Source: Thermomicrobiaceae bacterium
GTDB taxonomy: Bacteria > Chloroflexota > Chloroflexia > Thermomicrobiales > Thermomicrobiaceae
Assembly (NCBI GenBank): GCA_025966355.1
Contig: JAICWZ010000030.1
Span: forward strand, 1 to 10,653
Length of the DNA stretch: 10,653 nt
Reading direction: 5' to 3'
This document shows, in pieces, positions 1 to 10,627 of this stretch (positions are counted from its first letter, which is position 1; every line of letters begins with the position of its first letter). The translations under genes and the position numbers were made by a program. The notes beneath the pieces were generated by a model, which did no database searches, was not told the DNA's origin, and was given only the letters and a program-made list of their open reading frames with translations.

Positions 1-1981
1 CGTCGCCGGCGCCAAGGTTGCCAGCGGCACCTGGATCTGCGTGATGGATGCCGACTTGCAGCATCCACCCGAACGGATTCAGGATCTCCTCAACCAAGCG
101 CTTTCGACCGAGTCCGATCTGGTCATCGCCAGCCGCTACCGCGAACGCGGTAGCGTCGGCGATTTCAACCTCGTGCGCAAAGGTGCGTCGCGCCTCTCTG
201 CGTTGTCGGCGCGTGTCGCCTTCCCGCGCAAGCTCCTGCACGTCACCGACCCGATGAGCGGCTTCTTCCTCGTCCGCCACAGCGCGCTCGATTTCGACGA
301 GCTCAAGCCGCGCGGGTTCAAGATCTTGCTCGAAATCATGGCGAAGACCCCGAACCTCGCCATCAGCGAAATCGGCTTCGAATTCGGCAAGCGCAACGCC
401 GGTGAAAGCAAGGCATCGCTCGCCGAAGGTATGACCTACGCTGCCCAGCTTTGCCGGTTGCGCGCCGGAGATGAATTCCTTCGCTTCGTGAAGTTCATCC
501 TGGTCGGCGCCTCGGGTTTCATCGTGAACTCTGTTTTGATCTTTCTTTTCACTTCAATGATGGGCGTTCACTACCTCGTTTCCGCGATCTTCGCCAGCTG
601 GGGCTCGACGGTCTGGAATTTCGGACTGACCGAATTCTGGGTCTTCCCCGATCGCAGCAGCGCCCGCTTGCGTCTCACGCGCTTCGGGCTCTTCTTCGGC
701 ATGAACAGCGGGTTGCTCATCATTCGCGAGCCGCTCATCTGGTTCATGACCTCGGTGCTCGGCATCTATTACGTCGCATCGAACATCATCTCGCTTGTCG
801 CGCTCCTCTTGCTGCGCTATGGCGTCGCCGATAGTTTGATCTGGGAGCGCGCCAAGCGGAAGAATCATGCACACGGGCCGTTCTCGTACGACATCCACGG
901 CATCCTCAGCGTCAAGTCCGAAGTCTGGCTACCCGAGCTTGAGCGATTCCTGATTAGCGGTTCGATCGATCAGCCGTCGATCAACGTCCATGTCCACCGC
1001 TCGGGCTTCGAACAGGTGCAGGACGAGGGTGATGGTAACCGCTTCGTCTACAACGAGGGCTTCGGTCCGCTCGGCTTCGGCATCAATATCCGGATGGGCC
1101 AGACGATCGACATCAAGGCGACGCCGCTGCTGCGGCACTCGCCCCATGTGCTTTACACCAACGTGGTCGAGCCGATCCTGCGCTGGACCTTCACGCAGAA
1201 GGGCTATGCGCTGGTCCATGGTGCCTGCATCGCCTTCGACGACGATGCCTATCTCCTTACCGCGCGCACCGATACGGGTAAGACGACGACGATTCTCAAG
1301 ATCCTCGACCGGCAGCGGCGCGAGAGCGATACCGGTTCATTCCTCTCCGACGATCTGACCCTGCTCTCGGCCGACGGCCAGGTCCTCACCTACCCGAAGC
1401 CGATGACGATCAGCCGGCACACCGTTGCCGCCGTGCGCACCCCGCTCCTGAGCCGGTTCGAGCGCATCACACTCTTCATCCAGAGCCGGTTGCACTCACG
1501 CGAAGGGCGCCAATTCGCCTTCCGGCTTGTCGAAACAGGCCTGCCGGTCGCGACGATCAACGGCTTCGTGCAATGGATCGTTCCGCCGCCGAAATACCAC
1601 GTGCAGCGCCTGGTGCCGCACGTTCGCCTGCTGAACGCGGCGCATCTGCACGGGATCTTCGTCATCGAACGCGGCGAAGACGGCGAAGTGCAGTTGAGCG
1701 ACAGCGCGGCGATCGAGACGTTGCTGACCAACTCGGATGATGCCTACGGTTTCCCGCCGTACTCGGTCATCAAGAAACGACTGACACAGTACTACGGTCC
1801 AACACTGGAAGAGGCCGAACGTGCCATCGTGACCCAGGCGCTCTCGGGACTGCCGGCAAACCTGGTCCGCAGCAGCTCGATGAACTGGGCACAGCGCATC
1901 CCCGAACTGGCAGGTATCACGAACGAACCACGCGTGCCGCTCACGACAGCCGCTCCGGCATCGCTGGCACCGGCGACGTAG
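1..1981 (+). CDS. GT2 (polyprenyl-phosphate sugar synthase type) - GtrA - HprK-like kinase fusion, 5' partial
   Basis: The frame is already open at the left edge (first whole codon at nt 2), so the start and the first part of the GT2 domain lie upstream; 659 residues are visible. Domain 1 (to about nt 460) is the second half of a dolichyl-phosphate-mannose-synthase-like GT2: it has the VMDADLQHPPE motif (nt 41-73) with the metal-binding DxD, then DPMSGFFLV (nt 248-274). Such enzymes move a nucleotide-sugar residue to polyprenyl phosphate on the cytoplasmic face. Domain 2 (about nt 473-850) is a four-helix GtrA domain (RFVKFILVGASGF, then WNFGLTEFWVF), often linked to flipping or presenting lipid-linked sugars. 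Domain 3 (about nt 880-1790) resembles HPr kinase/PEP-carboxykinase-fold proteins: HGA, a Walker A match ARTDTGKT (nt 1262-1285) and SDD (nt 1346-1354). GT2-GtrA fusions are known; the added kinase-like domain is unusual. Its substrate is unknown. Gene 2 follows 74 nt downstream. Confidence 0.88.
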   Translation, partial: VAGAKVASGTWICVMDADLQHPPERIQDLLNQALSTESDLVIASRYRERGSVGDFNLVRKGASRLSALSARVAFPRKLLHVTDPMSGFFLVRHSALDFDELKPRGFKILLEIMAKTPNLAISEIGFEFGKRNAGESKASLAEGMTYAAQLCRLRAGDEFLRFVKFILVGASGFIVNSVLIFLFTSMMGVHYLVSAIFASWGSTVWNFGLTEFWVFPDRSSARLRLTRFGLFFGMNSGLLIIREPLIWFMTSVLGIYYVASNIISLVALLLLRYGVADSLIWERAKRKNHAHGPFSYDIHGILSVKSEVWLPELERFLISGSIDQPSINVHVHRSGFEQVQDEGDGNRFVYNEGFGPLGFGINIRMGQTIDIKATPLLRHSPHVLYTNVVEPILRWTFTQKGYALVHGACIAFDDDAYLLTARTDTGKTTTILKILDRQRRESDTGSFLSDDLTLLSADGQVLTYPKPMTISRHTVAAVRTPLLSRFERITLFIQSRLHSREGRQFAFRLVETGLPVATINGFVQWIVPPPKYHVQRLVPHVRLLNAAHLHGIFVIERGEDGEVQLSDSAAIETLLTNSDDAYGFPPYSVIKKRLTQYYGPTLEEAERAIVTQALSGLPANLVRSSSMNWAQRIPELAGITNEPRVPLTTAAPASLAPAT

Positions 1982-2055: not shown

Positions 2056-3390
2056 ATGACCGCGACTATTGCCGTGATCGGACTCGGCGTCCTGTCGCTC
2101 CTGCTCGCAATCCAGGGGGTCATCACGCTCTACCTGATGCTCTACACCTGGATGCGGCCGGACCGGCTCGAAGCCGCCCGCAGTCCGAAGAACTTCGCTG
2201 AACCGCTCTTACACTTCACGGCGTTGCTTCCGGCCCGCCATGAAGAAGCGGTGATCGCCCAGACGATCGAACGCGTCTGCCACACGCGCTATCCATCGGA
2301 TCTGATCGAGGTCGTTGTCATCTGTGAAGCGGGTGACACCGAGACGATCGCCGAGGCGACGCGCGCCGCGCGCAAGATCACCAGTCCGACGGTCAGTGTC
2401 GTCACCTTCGACGACGGCCCGATCAATAAGCCGCACGGTCTGAACGTCGGTTTCCGTGCGTCGAGCTTCGAGGTCGTCACGATCTTCGATGCCGAAGACG
2501 ATGTGCATCCCGAGATCTTCGACGTCGTGAACACGATCATGCTGCAAGACGACGCCGGCATCGTGCAGGCCGGCGTCCAGTTGATGGATTTCCGCTCCAG
2601 TTGGTATGCCCCGCACAACGTGTTGGAATACTTCTTCTGGTTCAAATCGCGTTTGCACTTCCACGCCAACGTCGGCAGCGTGCCGCTCGGCGGCAATACC
2701 GTCTTCATGAAGCGCAGCCTGGTCGAGGAGGCCGGTGGTTGGGATGAGCACTGCCTAACCGAAGACGCCGATATCGGTATCCGTCTCAGCGCGCTCGGCG
2801 AGCCGATCGCGATTACCTACGATCACGATCATGCGACGCGCGAGGAGACGCCGCCGAGCCTTGGAAACTTCATCCGGCAGCGGACGCGCTGGAATCAGGG
2901 CTTCTTGCAGGTCGTGCGCAGCGGTGACTGGCGACGGCTGGAGACGCGAAATCAGCGCCTGCTGGCGCTCTACACGCTCGCCTACCCGCTGGTGCAGGCC
3001 GCGCTGGCGATCCTCTGGCTGCCCGCCTTGATCACGACGATCACCCTGAAGGCGCCGGTCATCATCGCCATGCTCTCGCTCTCACCATTCTATTTCCTCG
3101 CCTTCAAGTACATCGCGGACCTGATCGGTCTGTCGGAGTTCTGTCGCTTGTACGGCTTCAAACTGCGGCCACGCGACTTCGCGGTCTTCACGCTTGGTTT
3201 CCTGCCGTATCAAATACTGCTCAACATCAGCGCCCTTCGAGCGGTCGCACGGCACATCCGTGGCGATTCCAGTTGGGAAAAGACCACACACACGGGCGCG
3301 CATCGCGTCGCGCGCGATCGCTTCCAGCCCCAGCCTGGCGCGGCCATGATGCGCGGGCAAGAAGCGCTCAACGAAGCAGCCGACGACTAA
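2056..3390 (+). CDS. Membrane glycosyltransferase family 2, processive-synthase type (XagB/cellulose-synthase-like)
   Basis: The protein has 444 residues. One membrane helix near residues 5-30 precedes a cytoplasmic GT-A domain. The domain shows the substrate-binding set of processive GT2 enzymes: a DAEDD metal motif at 145-149, TED at 235-237 (catalytic base) and QRTRW at 275-279 (QxxRW, acceptor/product binding). Two to four hydrophobic segments follow at about 302-395. A WEKTTHTG stretch at 407-414 resembles the C-terminal WxKTxH motif of XagB-like transferases. The likely role is polymerising a polysaccharide from a nucleotide sugar and passing it through the membrane; the sugar cannot be read from sequence. 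No PilZ domain is present, so c-di-GMP control of the BcsA kind is not indicated. The ATG is the only start before an in-frame stop at 2041, and AGAGG (2043-2047) sits 8 nt before it. The GH8-like domain encoded next door echoes the pairing of synthase and GH8 in cellulose operons. Confidence 0.9.
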   Translation: MTATIAVIGLGVLSLLLAIQGVITLYLMLYTWMRPDRLEAARSPKNFAEPLLHFTALLPARHEEAVIAQTIERVCHTRYPSDLIEVVVICEAGDTETIAEATRAARKITSPTVSVVTFDDGPINKPHGLNVGFRASSFEVVTIFDAEDDVHPEIFDVVNTIMLQDDAGIVQAGVQLMDFRSSWYAPHNVLEYFFWFKSRLHFHANVGSVPLGGNTVFMKRSLVEEAGGWDEHCLTEDADIGIRLSALGEPIAITYDHDHATREETPPSLGNFIRQRTRWNQGFLQVVRSGDWRRLETRNQRLLALYTLAYPLVQAALAILWLPALITTITLKAPVIIAMLSLSPFYFLAFKYIADLIGLSEFCRLYGFKLRPRDFAVFTLGFLPYQILLNISALRAVARHIRGDSSWEKTTHTGAHRVARDRFQPQPGAAMMRGQEALNEAADD

Positions 3391-3443: not shown

Positions 3444-6233
3444 TTGACCTCTACCTGGGAACCGGGGACTTCAGCGCAGGGTCAACGACGCTTCTGGCCA
3501 TTCGGCGAGTCGTCCACCGTCGCGAAAGCCGTGCGGGGCGGGCAGTGGCTGCTGGTTCGGCACGGCGCACGGATCGCTCATATCACGACGATCCTGGCGC
3601 TCCTTGTCACCGCCGATCTTTTCACCGGCTACAACATGTTTCACTACCCGCAGTACGAGTTGGACGAAGGAACGTACGTCGGCTCGGCCTGGGCGTTGAT
3701 CAAGCATGGGAAGCCGTTCTACTACACCTACACCTATAGCCATCCTCCGTTCGGCTGGCTGCTGATCGGCGTCTGGACAACGATCGTCGGCGGGTTTTCA
3801 GAATTCGGCATGGCGATCAACAACGGTCGCATGCTGATGCTCGCCGTCTCGCTTGTCTCCGCCCTCCTGATCTATCTGATCGTTCGCGACGTCACCGGCC
3901 ATATCGCGGCCGGCGCGTTCGCATCGATCCTCTTCATCGTCTCGCCGCTCGGCGTCGCCCTGCACCGTCAGGTCTACCTCGACAACATCGGAACGATGTT
4001 CCTGCTCCTGTCGATTCTGATGCTCAGTCGCGGCACCGGACGGCTCGACCGAATCATCGTGAGCGCCGTCGCCTTTGGGCTCGCCTTCTGGAGCAAGGAG
4101 ATCTTTGCCATCTTCCTGCCCGGCATGATCTACCTTGCCTATATTCGCTCGCATCCGTCGAACCGGCGCTATTCGATGGCGATGTGGCTCACCATCTCGC
4201 TGTCGATCATTTCGCTCTTCGTGCTGGTTGCCGTCCTGAAGGATGAGCTCTTTCCGCCGGGCGTCCTCTGGAGTTCGTCATCGCCGCACGTCAGTATTCT
4301 CGGCACCTACCAGTCGCAAGCCGAGCGCGGCGGCAATGGTTCGCTCTTGCATGCGCATAGCGACATGCGCGTGCTCTTCCACCAGTGGCGCGTCGCCGAC
4401 CCGCTTCTGATACTCGGCGGGATTTTCGCCGCGCTGATCGGGACGGTCACCGCCTACTGGAATCGCTTCCTCTTCGGAATCGGAATCCTGATTCTCTGCT
4501 TCGTCCTCTTCTTCGGCCGTGGCGGGATCGTTCTCTACTACTACATCATTCCGATCCTGGCGCTGCTCGCGATCTGCGTTGGGGTTTTGATCGGTTCGGC
4601 CATGAACCTCCTGACGCGCTGGACGCCGCAACGCTGGAGCCTCTGGGCGGCAAGCGTGCTCGTGCTGGCCGCCTCGGTCCTGGTTGGACAGCAGGCGATC
4701 GCCGCCAATCACACCAACTTCAGCGCCGATCGCACGACGCCGCAGGTGCAGGCCGCCGAATGGATCGTGCAGAACGTTCCGAGCGGCAGCACGATCATCA
4801 TGGATTCCTATCCGTGGGTCGATCTGCGCGAGCCGTCATTCACCGGCGGCAAGACGTTCGTGGCGCACTACTACTGGCCGGCGCTCTCGGACCCGGCGAT
4901 CCGCGACACGCAGCTGCACGACAACTGGCACAGCATCGACTATCTCCTGATCAGCCCGAATACCACCGCCGATGCCGCGCGCAGTTCACTGCCGCTCCTG
5001 GCGCAGGCGATCCAGAACTCCGACGAAGTCGCGAGCTTCGCCGCGAGTAACTGGACGGTGAAGATCATGCGTATCCGCAAGCTGACGCGCACGCCGGCCG
5101 CGGATAATTCGATCCTGCAGTCATCCTGGCAGAGCTACAAGACGTCGTTCATCACCAACGGGCAGGTGACCGATCCCGAGTCCAACGGGCAAACGACCTC
5201 GCAGCAACAGGCCGACGCGATGTTGCGCGCGGTCTACGCCAATGATCACGCATCGTTTAACGCGCTCTGGGGTTGGACGCAAGCTCACCTGCAACGAAGC
5301 GACAATGGGCTTTTCGCGACGCGTTGGGGTGTGCCGTCCAAGAGTTCGGCCACGCCGGCCGTTCTCGAAAACAACACCTCGGCCAACGCCGACCAGACGA
5401 TCGCCTTCAGCCTGATTCTCGCAAGCAAGGTTTGGAATCAACCTGACTATCTGACGACTGCTCAACAACTCGTACGGCACATCTGGTCGACGGAAACCAC
5501 GGTCATCAACGGCCGGCGTGTCATGGTCGCCGGCAACTGGGCCGGCGGTGGCGGGCCGAACAATGATCCCGCAACCGTTAATCCGTCGTACTTTCAGCCG
5601 TACGTCTATCGCATCTTCGCTGATGTCGACCAGAAACATGATTGGAACAACCTGGTCGACTCGTCGTACGACGTGCTCGAGGAGATACACAACGACAAAG
5701 CGTTCGGCGGTTCGACCGGACTCTTCCCCGACTGGGTCGCGATGAACATCAAGAACGGTCATCTGAGCACGGCGACGCTGAATACGCCGGACGTCAAGCA
5801 GTCAGCGCGTGACGCCTCGCGCATCGCGCTCAATCTCTCGATCGACTGGCTCTGGAATCACGACGATCGCGCGCTCAACACGTTGCAGATGGACGACTTC
5901 GTCACCAAGCAGATTTCGAGCACCGGACAAGCGCTCTCCGCCTACAACTTCGATGGTACGCCGGCCTCAACGCAACCGTCGGCGTCGACCATGGTGAGTG
6001 CGATCCCGCAGATTCTGCTGATCGGCCAGCAAGCGACGGCGCTCAAGCTCTACGCCACCAATGTCCTCCGCGGCTTCGACAGCAGCAACGGCGGCAAGTT
6101 CTGGGGCGCCGATCAGAACAACATCTACGCACAGACAACGTACTGGTACACCTCGGCTGTGATGGACGGATCGCTATCCAATCTCTGGACCGGTCAGTCG
6201 ACGATCGACTGGAGCCAGGCGTTCTATCGCTAG
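3444..6233 (+). CDS. GT-C (PMT/ArnT-type) glycosyltransferase fused to a GH8-like domain with altered catalytic residues
   Basis: The protein has 929 residues. Residues 45-420 hold roughly eleven hydrophobic helices. After the first comes a loop with LDEGTY (D74-E75) and SHPPFG, the pattern of GT39/GT83 enzymes that use polyprenyl-phosphate sugars; D74 is the expected catalytic Asp. Residues 421-545 form a soluble extracytoplasmic module. Residues 556-929 follow GH8, the family of BcsZ endoglucanase: WQSYKTSFI, TTSQQQADAM, NADQTIAFSLILASKVW, NPSYFQP, FPDW and RDASR come in the family order. At the position of the GH8 general acid Glu (TTSEGQ) there is Gln587, and the first Asp of the A-[ST]-D-[AG]-D signature is Asn648; the putative base Asp790 (DASR) remains. 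The domain is therefore probably non-hydrolytic or altered. The start is TTG: an in-frame TGA lies at 3429-3431 and GAGAGAG (3430-3436) is 7 nt upstream. GTG at 3531 is a weaker alternative. Family calls rest on alignment from memory. Confidence 0.87.
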   Translation: MTSTWEPGTSAQGQRRFWPFGESSTVAKAVRGGQWLLVRHGARIAHITTILALLVTADLFTGYNMFHYPQYELDEGTYVGSAWALIKHGKPFYYTYTYSHPPFGWLLIGVWTTIVGGFSEFGMAINNGRMLMLAVSLVSALLIYLIVRDVTGHIAAGAFASILFIVSPLGVALHRQVYLDNIGTMFLLLSILMLSRGTGRLDRIIVSAVAFGLAFWSKEIFAIFLPGMIYLAYIRSHPSNRRYSMAMWLTISLSIISLFVLVAVLKDELFPPGVLWSSSSPHVSILGTYQSQAERGGNGSLLHAHSDMRVLFHQWRVADPLLILGGIFAALIGTVTAYWNRFLFGIGILILCFVLFFGRGGIVLYYYIIPILALLAICVGVLIGSAMNLLTRWTPQRWSLWAASVLVLAASVLVGQQAIAANHTNFSADRTTPQVQAAEWIVQNVPSGSTIIMDSYPWVDLREPSFTGGKTFVAHYYWPALSDPAIRDTQLHDNWHSIDYLLISPNTTADAARSSLPLLAQAIQNSDEVASFAASNWTVKIMRIRKLTRTPAADNSILQSSWQSYKTSFITNGQVTDPESNGQTTSQQQADAMLRAVYANDHASFNALWGWTQAHLQRSDNGLFATRWGVPSKSSATPAVLENNTSANADQTIAFSLILASKVWNQPDYLTTAQQLVRHIWSTETTVINGRRVMVAGNWAGGGGPNNDPATVNPSYFQPYVYRIFADVDQKHDWNNLVDSSYDVLEEIHNDKAFGGSTGLFPDWVAMNIKNGHLSTATLNTPDVKQSARDASRIALNLSIDWLWNHDDRALNTLQMDDFVTKQISSTGQALSAYNFDGTPASTQPSASTMVSAIPQILLIGQQATALKLYATNVLRGFDSSNGGKFWGADQNNIYAQTTYWYTSAVMDGSLSNLWTGQSTIDWSQAFYR

Positions 6234-6269: not shown

Positions 6270-7187
6270 GTGACTGGACAAGCACGCAGACAACCGACGA
6301 AATCGACCAACAGCGGGCACCGCTGGCTCACGGTGCTGATCACCATCGTCATCGCCGTACTGCTCGTCGTCTTCGGCGCCCAGCTTGCCCACGGGCCAAG
6401 CAGGAACAACGTCGAAGCCTCCACGCTCGTCACCTCGGTGAGTAGTCCGGCGCCCGCCGTCGCGAACGCGGCGACGCCGGTGCCGGCACGCGCGCCGGTG
6501 CCAACTGCCGTCGCGGTCACACCGACGTTGACCGCGGCAACAACGACGCCGGTCGTCGCGACACCGCCAAGCCCAACGATCACTGAGGGCGCTTCACCCG
6601 AGGCAACGAGTGCGATCGACCGTTTTGTCCAGCAGAACGGCACGACGCTCGATCTCGGCTCCGCGACCAGCGCTCCGTTCACATCCGCCGCGAACGGTGT
6701 CGCCGGTCAGTACTTCGCGAACGCCGTTCTCGAATATCATCCGGAGTTTGCGGGTACCCCGTACGCCGTCGAACTGTCGCGCATCGGTGTCGCCCTTGCC
6801 GGCGCGAACAATTTGGGCCAAAGCCCGGCGTTTCAGCCGCTGGACACCAGCACGCAGGGCGACGCAAACTGCTGGTTCGTCCAGGCAACGCGCCATCGAC
6901 TCTGCGGCGGCTTTCGCGACTTCTGGCGCTCGCGAGGACTCGATCTCGGCGACCCAGGCGTCTCTTATCGCGAATCGCTGGCACTCTTCGGCTATCCAAT
7001 TTCCGAGGAATTCGTCGATCCCGCTTCCGGACTGACCGTCCAGTACTTCGAGCGTGGCGTCCTGACCTTCGACGGCAGCAAGGCACCGGCCGACCGCGTC
7101 CGCGAACAAACCTCGACCGAAGCGATTCTGAATCGCTGGCACTACCAGATCATCGCCGGTGCCGCGTCGCTCCCCGGCGGAGGTTGA
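6270..7187 (+). CDS. Exported single-pass protein with Pro/Thr/Ala stalk and VQYFER/FGYPISEEF-type repeats
   Basis: The protein has 305 residues and no assigned function. A basic N-terminus (RRQPTK) leads to one hydrophobic helix at about 19-40, a signal anchor or an uncleaved signal. Residues 45-105 are a disordered stalk rich in Ala, Pro, Thr and Val. The C-terminal part carries two versions of a motif seen in many secreted Chloroflexota proteins: a short one at 143-177 (GQYFANAVLEYHPE, then PYAVELSRIGVAL) and a full one at 205-268 (FRDFWRSRGL, ALFGYPISEEF, TVQYFERGVLTFD). C201 and C212 are the only cysteines and could form a disulfide. The rest of the protein is soluble and most likely extracellular. 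The start is GTG, the only start codon between an in-frame stop at 6249 and the helix, with AAAGAGA (6258-6264) 5 nt upstream. It begins 36 nt after gene 3, so it is probably cotranscribed. A structural or binding role on the cell surface is inference. Confidence 0.78.
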   Translation: MTGQARRQPTKSTNSGHRWLTVLITIVIAVLLVVFGAQLAHGPSRNNVEASTLVTSVSSPAPAVANAATPVPARAPVPTAVAVTPTLTAATTTPVVATPPSPTITEGASPEATSAIDRFVQQNGTTLDLGSATSAPFTSAANGVAGQYFANAVLEYHPEFAGTPYAVELSRIGVALAGANNLGQSPAFQPLDTSTQGDANCWFVQATRHRLCGGFRDFWRSRGLDLGDPGVSYRESLALFGYPISEEFVDPASGLTVQYFERGVLTFDGSKAPADRVREQTSTEAILNRWHYQIIAGAASLPGGG

Positions 7188-7296: not shown

Positions 7297-9612
7297 ATGA
7301 GCTACTGGAAAACCTTGCGGCGGGTGATGGCCGCGCTGGTGGCCATCGCTGCCATCGCGATTGTCGCCAACGCGTCGAATGAGTTCGCGGTCCATCCGGC
7401 ATCCGCGAGCACAATCGTGCAAACGTTCAAGCCGACGGCGGACGCCTGGGTGAACGCCGCTGCCCCCGACAAAGTGTCCGGCACCGGTTACGAGCTTCAG
7501 GTCGATGGCACACCGGTCCAGATCGCCTATTTCACGTTCAATTTGAGCGCGCTCTCCGGCTCGGTGGTCAGCGCGACGCTGAAGCTGTCGGTGACCGGTA
7601 ACGGGAGCGTCGACGGCGGCTCGGTCAGCACCGTCAGCGATACGAGCTGGACCGAGACGACGCTCACTTACAACAATCGTCCCGCGCTCTCGGCACCGAT
7701 CGCGTCCATCGGCGCCGCGCCCGCCAACCAGGCCGTTACGGTCGACGTCACCTCGGCCGTAACTTCCAGCGGCATGCTTGGACTGGCGGTCGCCTCGACC
7801 AACGGCGACGGCGTTTCCTACGCTTCGCGCGAGAATGTGAACCCGCCGCTGCTGACGGTTACGGTCGGCACATCCACCCCGACGAGCACGGCAACCAGCA
7901 CCGCGACCGGAACCGCAACGACCACAGCGACTAGCACGTCCACCCCAACCACGACCGCCACATCGACCAGCACGACGACCCCAACCGCGACAGCGACCGA
8001 TACGGCAACCAGCACGACGACTCCAACCGCCACCGCGACTGGTACACCGACCAGCACCGCCACCTCCACGGCAACCGCGACGGCAACCGCGACGGCGACG
8101 AGTACCGCAACCAGCACCGCCACGGCGACGCCGTCACCGACACCGACCGGCACGCCGACCTCGACCCAGACCTACATCTTCCGAGCATCGGCCGACGCCT
8201 ACGCCAACAGTAGCGCACCCGACACCGTCTCCGGCACCGGTTTTGAAATACCGGTCGATGGCTCACCCGATCGTCTTGATTACATGACCTTCAACGTGAC
8301 CGGCCTCAGCGGAACGATCATCAGCGCGACGCTTAAGCTGTCGACAACCTGGGACGGAAGCGTCGATGGTGGGACGATCGGCAAGGTTCTCGACACGAGT
8401 TGGACCGAATCGACGCTCACCTATAACAACCGCCCGGCGATCTCGCCGCCAACGGTCGCGATCGGCTCCGTCGTCCCGTATCAATCGGTGACCAAAGACG
8501 TCACCGCGGCGATCACCGGCAATGGACCAGCCGGCTTCGCGATCAGCTCGACCAACGGTGATGGCGTGACCTATGCCTCGCGCGAGAATTCGACGCCACC
8601 GATTCTGACGATCGTAACGGGCGTCTTCGGCACTCCGACGCCGACGCCGACCGCAACCGCGACCGGTACCGCGACCACAACGCCAACCGCGACCGCCACC
8701 GGCACAGCCACGGCGACCGCAACGGCAACGGCAACCGCGACACCGACCGCGACACCGGTCGACGGGCCGGTCATCGCGGCGGCCGGCGATATCTCGTGCG
8801 ATCCGACGAGCTCACACTACTTCAACGGCCTCGGCGATCCGACACACTGCCAGCAGATGGCGACGTCCAATCTGCTGCTGCAAATGCAGCCAACTGCCGT
8901 TCTCACCCTCGGTGATAACCAGTACATGGAGAACTCGCTCGCTCAGTATATGGCGGTCTTCGATAAGACGTGGGGGCGACTCAAGTCGATCATCCATCCA
9001 GCCGTTGGGAACCACGAGTATCTGACCCCGAATGCGGCCGGCTACTTCACCTATTTTGGGGCGGCGGCCGGTGATCCGAGCACGGGCTATTACTCGTATG
9101 ACATCGGTTCGTGGCATATCATCACGCTGAACAGCGAGTGTGCCCAGATCGGCGGCTGCAACAAGGGGAGCCCCGAAGAACTCTGGCTCAAGAATGATCT
9201 CGCCACGCACAACAATCAGTGCACGATCGCGGTCTGGCACGAACCGGAGTTCGATTCCGGACCAAACGGATCGGGCACCTTCTACCTCGACTTCTGGAAT
9301 GATCTCTATCGAGGTGGTGCTGACATCATCCTCAATGGGCACTCACATCTCTACGAGCGCTTCGGGCCGCAGACACCAACCGGCGTGGCAGACCCTGCCC
9401 ACGGCATCGTTCAGTTCACCGTTGGCAGTGGAGGCGAGGATCTGGATAACTTCCACAACATCCGTCCGAACAGCATGGCGCGTGATTCCGACGATTTTGG
9501 CGTGTTGAAGCTGACACTCGGCGATGGCACGTACAGTTGGCAGTTCGTGACGATACCGGGAAGTTCCGGCTTCACCGATTCTGGGAGCGCAAGCTGTCAT
9601 GCGGCTCCATAG
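7297..9612 (+). CDS. Secreted purple-acid-phosphatase-like metallophosphoesterase with two CBM96/DNRLRE-like modules
   Basis: The protein has 771 residues. A Sec signal peptide (KTLRR, hydrophobic core, cleavage after ANA or ASA) is followed by module A (43-192), a 100-residue Thr/Ala/Ser/Pro linker (192-291), module B (294-443), a second linker (445-487) and a catalytic domain (490-771). Modules A and B show the DNRLRE/CBM96 pattern: ADAW/ADAY, YFTFNLS/YMTFNVT, SATLKLS, DTSWTETTLTYNNRPA. That family binds or decorates extracellular polysaccharide. The catalytic domain keeps the dinuclear-metal ligands: D498 (AAGDIS), D540 and Y543 (GDNQY), N572 (GNHE), H648 (WHEP), H682 and H684 (GHSHLYER). 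The GDxxY tyrosine is a hallmark of purple acid phosphatases. Paired cysteines (501/518, 615/621) suggest disulfides outside the cell. The substrate is not evident; a phosphorylated glycan is one possibility. The ATG has GAGGAGG 4 nt upstream. The last 14 nt overlap the next gene. Confidence 0.9.
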   Translation: MSYWKTLRRVMAALVAIAAIAIVANASNEFAVHPASASTIVQTFKPTADAWVNAAAPDKVSGTGYELQVDGTPVQIAYFTFNLSALSGSVVSATLKLSVTGNGSVDGGSVSTVSDTSWTETTLTYNNRPALSAPIASIGAAPANQAVTVDVTSAVTSSGMLGLAVASTNGDGVSYASRENVNPPLLTVTVGTSTPTSTATSTATGTATTTATSTSTPTTTATSTSTTTPTATATDTATSTTTPTATATGTPTSTATSTATATATATATSTATSTATATPSPTPTGTPTSTQTYIFRASADAYANSSAPDTVSGTGFEIPVDGSPDRLDYMTFNVTGLSGTIISATLKLSTTWDGSVDGGTIGKVLDTSWTESTLTYNNRPAISPPTVAIGSVVPYQSVTKDVTAAITGNGPAGFAISSTNGDGVTYASRENSTPPILTIVTGVFGTPTPTPTATATGTATTTPTATATGTATATATATATATPTATPVDGPVIAAAGDISCDPTSSHYFNGLGDPTHCQQMATSNLLLQMQPTAVLTLGDNQYMENSLAQYMAVFDKTWGRLKSIIHPAVGNHEYLTPNAAGYFTYFGAAAGDPSTGYYSYDIGSWHIITLNSECAQIGGCNKGSPEELWLKNDLATHNNQCTIAVWHEPEFDSGPNGSGTFYLDFWNDLYRGGADIILNGHSHLYERFGPQTPTGVADPAHGIVQFTVGSGGEDLDNFHNIRPNSMARDSDDFGVLKLTLGDGTYSWQFVTIPGSSGFTDSGSASCHAAP
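7423..8625 (+). repeat. Duplicated CBM96/DNRLRE-like module (copies 7423-7872 and 8176-8625)
   Basis: Two 150-codon copies align without a gap, and by hand count somewhat more than half of the residues are identical. The best-kept blocks are SATLKLS, DTSWTE followed by TLTYNNRPA, and STNGDGV followed by YASREN. The DNA has diverged well beyond slippage, so this is an old internal duplication kept under selection rather than a recent event. The copies flank the first Thr/Ala linker. Confidence 0.85.
7870..8169 (+). repeat. Low-complexity Thr/Ala/Ser/Pro linker DNA with a 42-bp tandem repeat
   Basis: This codes for a 100-residue linker, almost all Thr, Ala, Ser and Pro with scattered Gly. It has no Lys or Arg and no aromatic residue apart from none at all until the next module. 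It contains a 42-bp imperfect tandem repeat (7969-8010 and 8011-8052), encoding STTTPTATATDTAT then STTTPTATATGTPT; the first 20 bases of the two units differ at one position. A 12-bp unit, ACGGCAACCGCG, occurs twice exactly at 8068-8091. Synonymous Thr and Ala codons are mixed, so both strands stay open; the antisense Val/Ala frame is a by-product. The linker probably separates the binding modules from each other and the enzyme, and offers many Thr hydroxyls for O-glycosylation. Confidence 0.85.
8629..8757 (+). repeat. Second Thr/Ala/Pro linker DNA
   Basis: This codes for a 43-residue Thr/Ala/Pro linker joining module B to the phosphatase domain. It shares the TTTPTATATGT core with the first linker and ends in alternating Thr-Ala pairs written with ACC/ACG/ACA and GCG/GCA codons. 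The shared core suggests that the linker was copied with the CBM-like module or exchanged by recombination between the two tracts. Confidence 0.8.
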
Positions 9613-10627
9613 CGACACACCCGATGGCAACCGGCGTTCACCCGCGCCGGTTGCTATCCTGTATCTTCTCGCGCTTTCGCTCGTGTTAGCCGGGTGTGGG
9701 GCAGGCGCTCAATACCGGTCGCGTGCGGCGACGTTGGAACCAACAACCCAATCGCCGACTGCTGTCGGCACGCCGCTCCCGAACGATCCAGTCGTCGTCG
9801 CCGCCGGAGACATCGCCTGTGATCCGACCAGCGCCTCGTATCACGATGGACTTGGCGACCCGACGCATTGCCAGATGAAGGCAACCTCGGACCTCGTCGC
9901 CAGCATTCAGCCAAACGATGTGCTGGTGCTCGGGGACAATCAGTACGAGATGGGAAAACTGCTGAAATTTCAGGAGTCGTACGGCCCAACCTGGGGGCGA
10001 TTCAAAGACATCACCTACCCCATCCCCGGCAACCACGAGTATCAGACGACGAATGCTGCCGGATACTTCGCCTATTTCGGAGCCGTAGCGGGTAACCCGA
10101 CGAAGGGCTACTACTCCTTCGACATCGGAACCTGGCACATCGTGGCGCTCAACAGTGAATGCGTTCAGATCGGCGGCTGCAAAGCAGGGAGCCCGGAGGA
10201 GCAATGGCTCAAGGCCGACCTGGCCAGCCATCACGCGATGTGCACCCTGGCGATGTGGCATCGGCCAGAGTTCGACTCGGGAGATTACGCCTCAACCTCG
10301 TTTCTCGCCTTCTGGACCGATCTGTATAACGCGGGTGCGGATGTTATCCTCAACGGCCACTCGCATATCTATGAGCGCTTCGCGCCGCAAACGCCCAACG
10401 GCACGCTCGACACAGCCTACGGCATACGGCAGTTCACCGTCGGGACTGGTGGTGACGACCATACTCCGATCAACAAAATCAAGCCGAACAGCGAGACACG
10501 GAACGCGACCACCTTCGGCGTACTGAAGCTGACGCTTCACGCTTCCGGCTACAACTGGCAGTTCATCCCGATCGCGGGAGAGACATATACCGATTCAGGA
10601 AGTGCGGATTGTCATGGCGCACCATAA
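9599..10627 (+). CDS. Lipoprotein purple-acid-phosphatase-like metallophosphoesterase (paralogue of the preceding gene)
   Basis: The protein has 342 residues. A polar, Arg-containing N-terminus of about 17 residues leads to a hydrophobic core and the lipobox LAGC, with Cys33 as the lipidated residue, so the enzyme should be anchored to the outer face of the membrane. After a short Thr/Pro-containing spacer (34-62) the catalytic domain (64-342) aligns with the C-terminal domain of the preceding protein along its whole length, with a similar ending (SGSADCHGAP against SGSASCHAAP). The metal ligands are kept: D71, D113 and Y116 (GDNQY), N145 (GNHE), H221, H254 and H256 (GHSH). It lacks the CBM-like modules and long linkers. 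The ATG lies inside the end of the preceding gene (14-nt overlap) and no separate strong Shine-Dalgarno is visible, which points to translational coupling. The substrate is unknown; shared active-site residues suggest the same chemistry at a different location. Confidence 0.9.
   Translation: MRLHSDTPDGNRRSPAPVAILYLLALSLVLAGCGAGAQYRSRAATLEPTTQSPTAVGTPLPNDPVVVAAGDIACDPTSASYHDGLGDPTHCQMKATSDLVASIQPNDVLVLGDNQYEMGKLLKFQESYGPTWGRFKDITYPIPGNHEYQTTNAAGYFAYFGAVAGNPTKGYYSFDIGTWHIVALNSECVQIGGCKAGSPEEQWLKADLASHHAMCTLAMWHRPEFDSGDYASTSFLAFWTDLYNAGADVILNGHSHIYERFAPQTPNGTLDTAYGIRQFTVGTGGDDHTPINKIKPNSETRNATTFGVLKLTLHASGYNWQFIPIAGETYTDSGSADCHGAP

Follow-up and report, generated by a model that had tools for sequence, protein, structure and literature searches.

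It has long been asked why polysaccharide synthases are accompanied by a hydrolase that acts on what they make; in E. coli the secretion of phosphoethanolamine (pEtN) cellulose requires the cutting activity (PMC11379886). Described enzymes related to one half of the protein treated here are the family 8 glycoside hydrolases (GH8) CelA of C. thermocellum and BcsZ/CMCax, of which laboratory mutants with the general acid changed from Glu to Gln (E55Q BcsZ, E95Q CelA) were solved with cellopentaose (3qxq, 1kwf; PMC8805304). Related to the other half are the systems of three-component transmembrane glycosylation, made up of a GT-A synthase, a GtrA flippase and a GT-C transferase (PMC8035078, PMC11127046), and the AftD-type GT-C enzymes, which have extracellular carbohydrate-binding domains (PMC8035078). 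We analysed a stretch of 10,653 nucleotides (contig JAICWZ010000030.1 of the Thermomicrobiaceae bacterium assembly GCA_025966355.1; hereafter the window) that encodes a GT-C transferase fused to a GH8-like domain. An earlier sequence-only reading of this DNA named no described family of this architecture. The fusion is not singular: dozens were found, and the recurrent joining of a GT-C transferase to a GH8 partner that has repeatedly lost catalytic residues is real and more general than first described.

The window system is a variant of these known kinds, GH8 and three-component glycosylation. Its GH8 domain differs from CelA and BcsZ/CMCax in that the general acid and the subsite -1 Asp are replaced and a GT-C domain is fused to it, and the fusion stays under the cut-off of the BcsZ model NF008305 (114.4 of 299 bits). 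The replacement at Gln587 is the same Glu to Gln change as in E55Q BcsZ and E95Q CelA, but here it is natural, sister proteins have Thr, Pro or Ser at this position, and a further Asp and an aromatic residue are lost. All three domain types of three-component systems are encoded in the window (the DPMS-like GT2 and GtrA domains in the open reading frame, ORF, at 2–1981, the GT-C domain at 3444–6233); unlike in the described systems, the GT-C enzyme has a GH8-derived domain attached and is encoded after a processive-type GT2. The proposed logic would be like that of AftD-type enzymes, a soluble domain binding the acceptor polymer, except that the candidate in the window is a former glycoside hydrolase. 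No published account of a GT-C–GH8 fusion was found in the open-licence PMC literature searched.

Domain architecture of the fusion protein

The fusion protein lies above the curated cut-offs of both PF13231 (PMT_2; 50.9 bits, cut-off 26.1) and PF01270 (GH8; 144.2 bits, cut-off 24), which bears out the two-part architecture and the GH8 assignment of the sequence-only reading (Table 1). The architecture is also visible to annotation pipelines, since automatic JGI names carry both parts ('endo-1,4-beta-D-glucanase Y/4-amino-4-deoxy-L-arabinose transferase-like glycosyltransferase'). In the structure model, the GH8-like domain shares its (alpha/alpha)6 fold with the GH8 enzymes of solved structure. 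AlphaFold2 models of the degenerate GH8 domains of fusions still show the GH8 fold, which may lean on intact rows of the input alignment.

The GT-C residues D74, E75, R175, D180 and E268 are invariant in 23/23 aligned fusions. D74 follows the first membrane segment (44–62 by hydropathy; helix 25–67 in the model), and a catalytic role of the GT-C Asp after the first membrane helix has been described (PMC11127046). From its domain, GT-C residues and fold, the window protein is predicted to be a membrane GT-C glycosyltransferase that takes its sugar from a polyprenyl-phosphate carrier. The alignment of one fusion, P0016, with ArnT spans 425 residues and extends into the soluble domain. Homology to ArnT, together with an Arg/Lys-rich N-terminus, suggests that the GH8 half is extracytoplasmic.

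Table 1. Features of the fusion protein and of the two genes upstream of it; positions are those of the window.
Feature	Position	Strand	Remark
GT-C + GH8-like fusion ORF, 929 amino acids	3444..6233	+	GT-C part: polyprenyl-phosphate-sugar transferase, ArnT/PMT type
GT-C membrane domain, residues 45–421	3576..4706	+	D74-E75 after first membrane helix
Soluble domain, residues 430–548	4731..5087	+	occurs in unfused GT-C relatives too (L013, L087, L088 ORFs)
GH8-like (alpha/alpha)6 domain, residues 549–929	5088..6230	+	
Gln587	5202..5204	+	replaces GH8 general acid (CelA E95)
Asp591	5214..5216	+	one helical turn past lost acid
Thr626	5319..5321	+	replaces aromatic (CelA W132)
Asn648	5385..5387	+	replaces conserved subsite -1 Asp (CelA D152)
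Trp699	5538..5540	+	retained (CelA W205)
Tyr716	5589..5591	+	retained (CelA Y215)
Asp790	5811..5813	+	general base position (CelA D278); retained in window, Ala in P0010
Arg793	5820..5822	+	retained (CelA R281)
DPMS-like GT2 (residues 2–96) + GtrA membrane domain (164–281) + HprK-like C-terminal region	2..1981	+	5' end lost at contig edge
Processive-type GT2	2056..3390	+	QRTRW and LTEDAD motifs; PF13641, 128.7 bits

State of the GH8 cleft

Among the residues of active GH8 hydrolases, the window protein has the base Asp and neither the acid Glu nor the subsite -1 Asp, and its GH8-derived half is therefore predicted to be inactive as a hydrolase. The sequence-only reading had called all three positions correctly, and a non-hydrolytic role, too, is supported as the probable outcome. 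In the window's group (P0001–P0011, of which P0001 is the window protein and P0002 a near copy), position 648 is Asn in 11/11 and position 790 is Asp in 9/10 rows that reach it; position 587 is Gln in 7/11, Thr in 2/11, Pro in 1/11 and Ser in 1/11. Of the two changed residues, only Asn648 is fixed within this group.

The argument of the sequence-only reading, that each acid gave way to its matching amide so that the shape is kept, fails, and amide mimicry was rejected: four of the 11 sequences have Thr, Pro or Ser at 587, and the aromatic at 626 is Ser or Thr in 8/8 tabulated rows of the group. The CelA counterpart of position 626, W132, is presumably a stacking residue. Because 587 varies and this aromatic is lost, the cleft is not simply frozen for its old substrate. 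When eight rows of the group are compared with 59 intact ones, E587, Y591, the aromatic at 626, D648, D652, R797, Y894 and N898 are lost, and Y895 in half of them; N713-P714-S715-Y716, W699, W764, R793 (Lys in P0010) and D790 (Ala in P0010) are retained. Other lost groups retain less, with P0016 lacking Y716, W764 and D790.

Over the 72 fusions placed on the tree, 49 have Glu/Asp/Asp at 587/648/790 and 23 are changed; 'lost' here means that at least one of the three residues is changed, and the acid is retained in some lost rows (L075, L076, L078, P0056). Homologues are thus mostly intact in the family at large, an outcome that the sequence-only reading had named as contrary to its proposal, whereas the window clade is changed in 7/7 rows. 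By position, the losses number 19 fusions and 6 changes for E587, 20 and 7 for D648, 11 and 8 for D790, 23 and 10 for the aromatic at 626, and 13 and 6 for Y716. The separate GH8 proteins found in the loci are Glu/Asp/Asp in 6/6 cases.

Position 591 is acidic in 14/23 rows without E587 and in 0/63 rows with it, and the acidic residue was gained three times on the tree. Counting P0002 as well, 15 rows without E587 combine an acidic 591 with Arg/Lys793, six have neither, three have Arg793 without the acid, and none has the acid without Arg/Lys793. The general acid of EbBcsZ, Glu54, forms a pair with Arg245, the counterpart of Arg793 (PMC8805304), and on this ground Asp591 may be a replacement partner for Arg793.

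The fusion family and its distribution

The first homologue search returned 18 proteins. All but the plain GH8 P0019 belong to the fusion family, and five of these 17, shorter than 800 residues, were treated as fragments. A second search, whose query was an alignment of 23 fusions, returned 62 proteins, 52 with PF01270. Matches occur in 15/158 genomes of the window's class (E up to 1e-30) and 42/400 of its phylum (E up to 1e-60), counts that include the window's own genome, unfused GT-C proteins and separate GH8 proteins. At E up to 1e-30 no match came from the 20 remaining genomes of the window's family; a separate search found a remote GT-C stretch of 27% identity in one of them.

The loci derive from Chloroflexota, one Rubrobacter record (L006, the one match in a scan of 39 genomes from its class) and Patescibacteria (L007–L010). 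In the Patescibacteria class 8/383 genomes match, six of the eight by a GH8 or GT-C stretch only. Tandem pairs of fusions are present in L008, L009 and L010, and in L008 (5939–11601) the first has a degenerate GH8 domain (S/S/E) and the second an intact one. Fused and unfused GT-C forms coexist in genomes G144 and G145, and in L087 and L088 an unfused GT-C gene stands beside the same type of GT2, while a few kb off, on the opposite strand, lies a gene for a separate GH8 that is intact. The fusion P0013 has an additional Ser/Pro/Glu-rich C-terminal tail of about 300 residues, and P0007 is named in the database as a protein of a Nitrolancea metagenome-assembled genome. The fusion gene of L080 (8872–11466) is interrupted by one in-frame stop in its GT-C half; the genome is 99% complete.

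Number and direction of the losses

The tree was computed with IQ-TREE under PMSF from the part of the protein before GH8 (497 columns, 78 rows), and the state of the GH8 domain therefore does not shape it. Near copies, fragments or sequences without a GT-C match (P0002, P0004, P0008, P0011, P0015, P0018, P0060, P0061) were dropped beforehand, as were the plain GH8 P0019, P0033 (regarded as duplicating L006), L080 (stop) and L082 (regarded as the contig of L013); the unfused P0070 and L087 were left off as long branches. Because of a shifted motif, position 648 was scored by hand as changed in L079 and L081; these two are lost anyway through Arg587, and stand as Asp648, as aligned, in the per-position change counts. 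L083 was counted as intact (E/D/D), and L078 is a long branch of unsure placement.

On this tree the intact/lost label changes eight times, at least six of the changes being forced by supported branches, with 7–8 across bootstrap trees; a quick tree of 80 rows likewise gave eight changes, five of them forced. A single group of all lost rows, and with it a single ancient inactivation, was rejected by the approximately unbiased (AU) test (p-AU 0.00125). The window clade comprises seven rows, all lost, with support 100/100. The change counts themselves carry no direction. Since the solved GH8 enzymes, the six separate GH8 proteins and most fusions are all intact, an intact GH8 domain is probably ancestral in the fusion, and its conversion to a pseudo-enzyme is probably derived and repeated, six or more times in the family.

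Conserved neighbourhood

In 18/19 loci with upstream sequence, the gene immediately before the fusion, or before the first fusion of a tandem pair, encodes a homologue of the window GT2 (2056–3390). L083 is without it, L013/L082 is cut, and the broken L080 has a GT2 before its first piece. The QRTRW motif is present in 20/20 GT2s checked, two of these beside unfused GT-C genes. The window GT2 matches BcsA weakly across the QxxRW region (E 2e-5) and scores below the cut-off of the cellulose synthase equivalog TIGR03030 (37.4 of 699.1 bits). A proper bacterial cellulose (bcs) operon was rejected on this score and that of the BcsZ model; from the gene, the neighbouring GT2 is probably the synthase of a glycan.

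The product of ORF 2–1981 is above the cut-offs of PF00535 (45.5 bits) and PF04138 (57.3 bits) and is the predicted maker and flipper of a polyprenyl-phosphate sugar. Its C-terminal region matches TIGR04352 (HprK_rel_A) weakly (13.2 bits) and has a P-loop, TDTGKTTT, in the translation. Genes of DPMS/GtrA-like type, or a GT2 with such a domain attached, are found near the fusion or GT-C gene in the window, L009, L010, L073, L074, L086, L087 and L088. Beyond further GT2/GtrA domains, a Pfam scan of 20 ORFs from L006, L007, L010, L074, L077, L080, L084 and L086 found no component common to the loci.

Proposed function and alternatives

We propose that the fusion is a tethered pseudo-GH8 that engages a polysaccharide within a three-component glycosylation pathway, and assign this reading a probability of about 0.5. 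The DPMS-like/GtrA protein would make and flip the sugar donor, the adjacent processive-type GT2 would synthesise a glycan, and the GT-C enzyme would take the sugar from its polyprenyl-phosphate carrier on the outer side of the membrane; the pseudo-GH8 would grip or guide the polysaccharide, emerging or acceptor, for decoration at the GT-C site. The ancestral fusion would have had an intact GH8 domain, converted only later. The lectin-like role put forward in the sequence-only reading survives as the leading hypothesis, shorn of its amide-mimicry argument and with the missing cleft aromatic as a warning. The lost GH8 domains tested, all of groups other than the window clade, are under purifying selection, and BcsZ E56A is reported to retain some phenotypic effects in Salmonella (PMC5070118).

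Several observations weigh against this proposal. A crude hydropathy scan gives 10 membrane segments, an even number that alone would not place GH8 outside; the outward orientation is based on ArnT homology and not on this count. The drift of position 587 through Gln, Thr, Pro and Ser is one such point, and the aromatic at 626 is gone in most other lost rows too, which makes unchanged beta-glucan binding doubtful. According to PMC11379886, inactive BcsZ does not support pEtN-cellulose export in E. coli. The ratio of nonsynonymous to synonymous substitution rates (dN/dS) is 0.12–0.14 in the lost GH8 domains tested and 0.07–0.09 in the intact GH8 proteins encoded separately in these loci, rough values given a proportion of synonymous differences (pS) of 0.47–0.67 over three domains; in the GH8 of more distant intact pairs it is 0.34–0.49. 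The GH8/GT-C ratio of log identities is 1.05–1.69 in lost clades, GH8 being the faster, against intact means of 0.87–1.04 for pairs at 35–85% GT-C identity; only this middle range is informative, since intact pairs at 85–97% GT-C identity also average 1.58 (11 pairs, standard deviation 0.35). The faster divergence and higher dN/dS suggest that the lost GH8 domains are partly under relaxed constraint.

Nor is a replacement hydrolase general. Another GH8 is present in only 3/8 Chloroflexota genomes with a degenerate fusion (G143, G144, G145), all of one genus, in which, at four degenerate-fusion loci (L075–L078), a separate GH8 gene lies 2.9–4.2 kb away, its product intact and with a hydrophobic segment at the N-terminus. 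In the other five (G000, G064, G084, G087, G088) no other GH8 was found at E up to 1e-5; a copy may have been missed in G000 and G064, which are 79% and 85% complete. The Patescibacteria genome of L008 has no further GH8 apart from the intact fusion of the tandem. That a second GH8 compensates was accordingly rejected as a rule.

In one alternative, GH8 activity is dispensable and the domain is kept, without glycan binding, for folding, membrane-side packing or protein contacts of the GT-C enzyme or GT2 complex. Subsite residues 626, 648, 716, 764 and 895 decay in parallel, GH8 evolves faster relative to GT-C, and the structural residues G573, D601, W734, Y742, D801 and W804 are invariant or nearly so. 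We nevertheless consider such a scaffold rather unlikely: cleft residues W699, Y716 and W764 are fixed in the window group, as is R793 except for the Lys of P0010, and GT-C relatives without the domain exist, so that GT-C enzymes of this kind need no GH8 as such. The distribution of acidic residues at 591 and their three separate gains, together with the retention of D790 in nearly all window-group rows that reach it, could instead reflect an altered enzyme whose acid now lies at 591, one helical turn on from 587, and which still works with the base on glycosidic bonds, possibly those of a different polymer. This seems improbable, because D648 is lost as well, P0016 and P0050 lack the base despite D591, and a salt-bridge partner for the arginine is the simpler account of an acid that tracks Arg/Lys793. 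The paired-lineage test, on too few pairs, gave a median p of 1.

Ordinary endoglucanase activity despite the changes is more improbable still. The base, Tyr716 and Arg793 are retained, and mutation of the base lowers GH8 activity without abolishing it (PMC8805304), but the residue lost is the general acid, and E56A and E55A remove detectable cleavage of carboxymethyl cellulose by BcsZ (PMC5070118, PMC11379886). A chimeric contig or a sequencing error at the two codons might be suspected in a 79%-complete metagenome assembly; with both positions changed in 7/7 rows of the window's tree clade, which come from separate database entries, we regard the chance of an artefact as negligible.

If the tethered pseudo-GH8 engages polysaccharide as proposed, GT-C–GH8 fusions might, tentatively, form a widespread synthase-coupled decorating class, in which a cellulase-family domain tethered beside the synthase would, on six or more separate occasions, have given up cutting and become a clamp that holds the acceptor chain, the cutting sometimes being passed to a second intact GH8 in the cluster. 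A fold that is kept while its catalytic residues are repeatedly lost is a natural test of cutting versus holding, and it offers an answer to how GT-C enzymes find their acceptor polymer, posed as open in PMC8035078. Intact and degenerate sisters, including the L008 tandem with one of each, are a ready set for domain swaps.

Other genes of the window

Downstream of the fusion gene lies 6270–7187, whose product is hydrophobic near its N-terminus and matches LGFP below the threshold (14.8 of 22 bits); a remote homologue is found in L078 (21.9 bits). It is followed by two overlapping genes (7297–9612 and 9599–10627) for related calcineurin-like phosphoesterases, with 405.8 bits between them, the first of which has CBM96/DNRLRE matches and long T/P-rich linkers.
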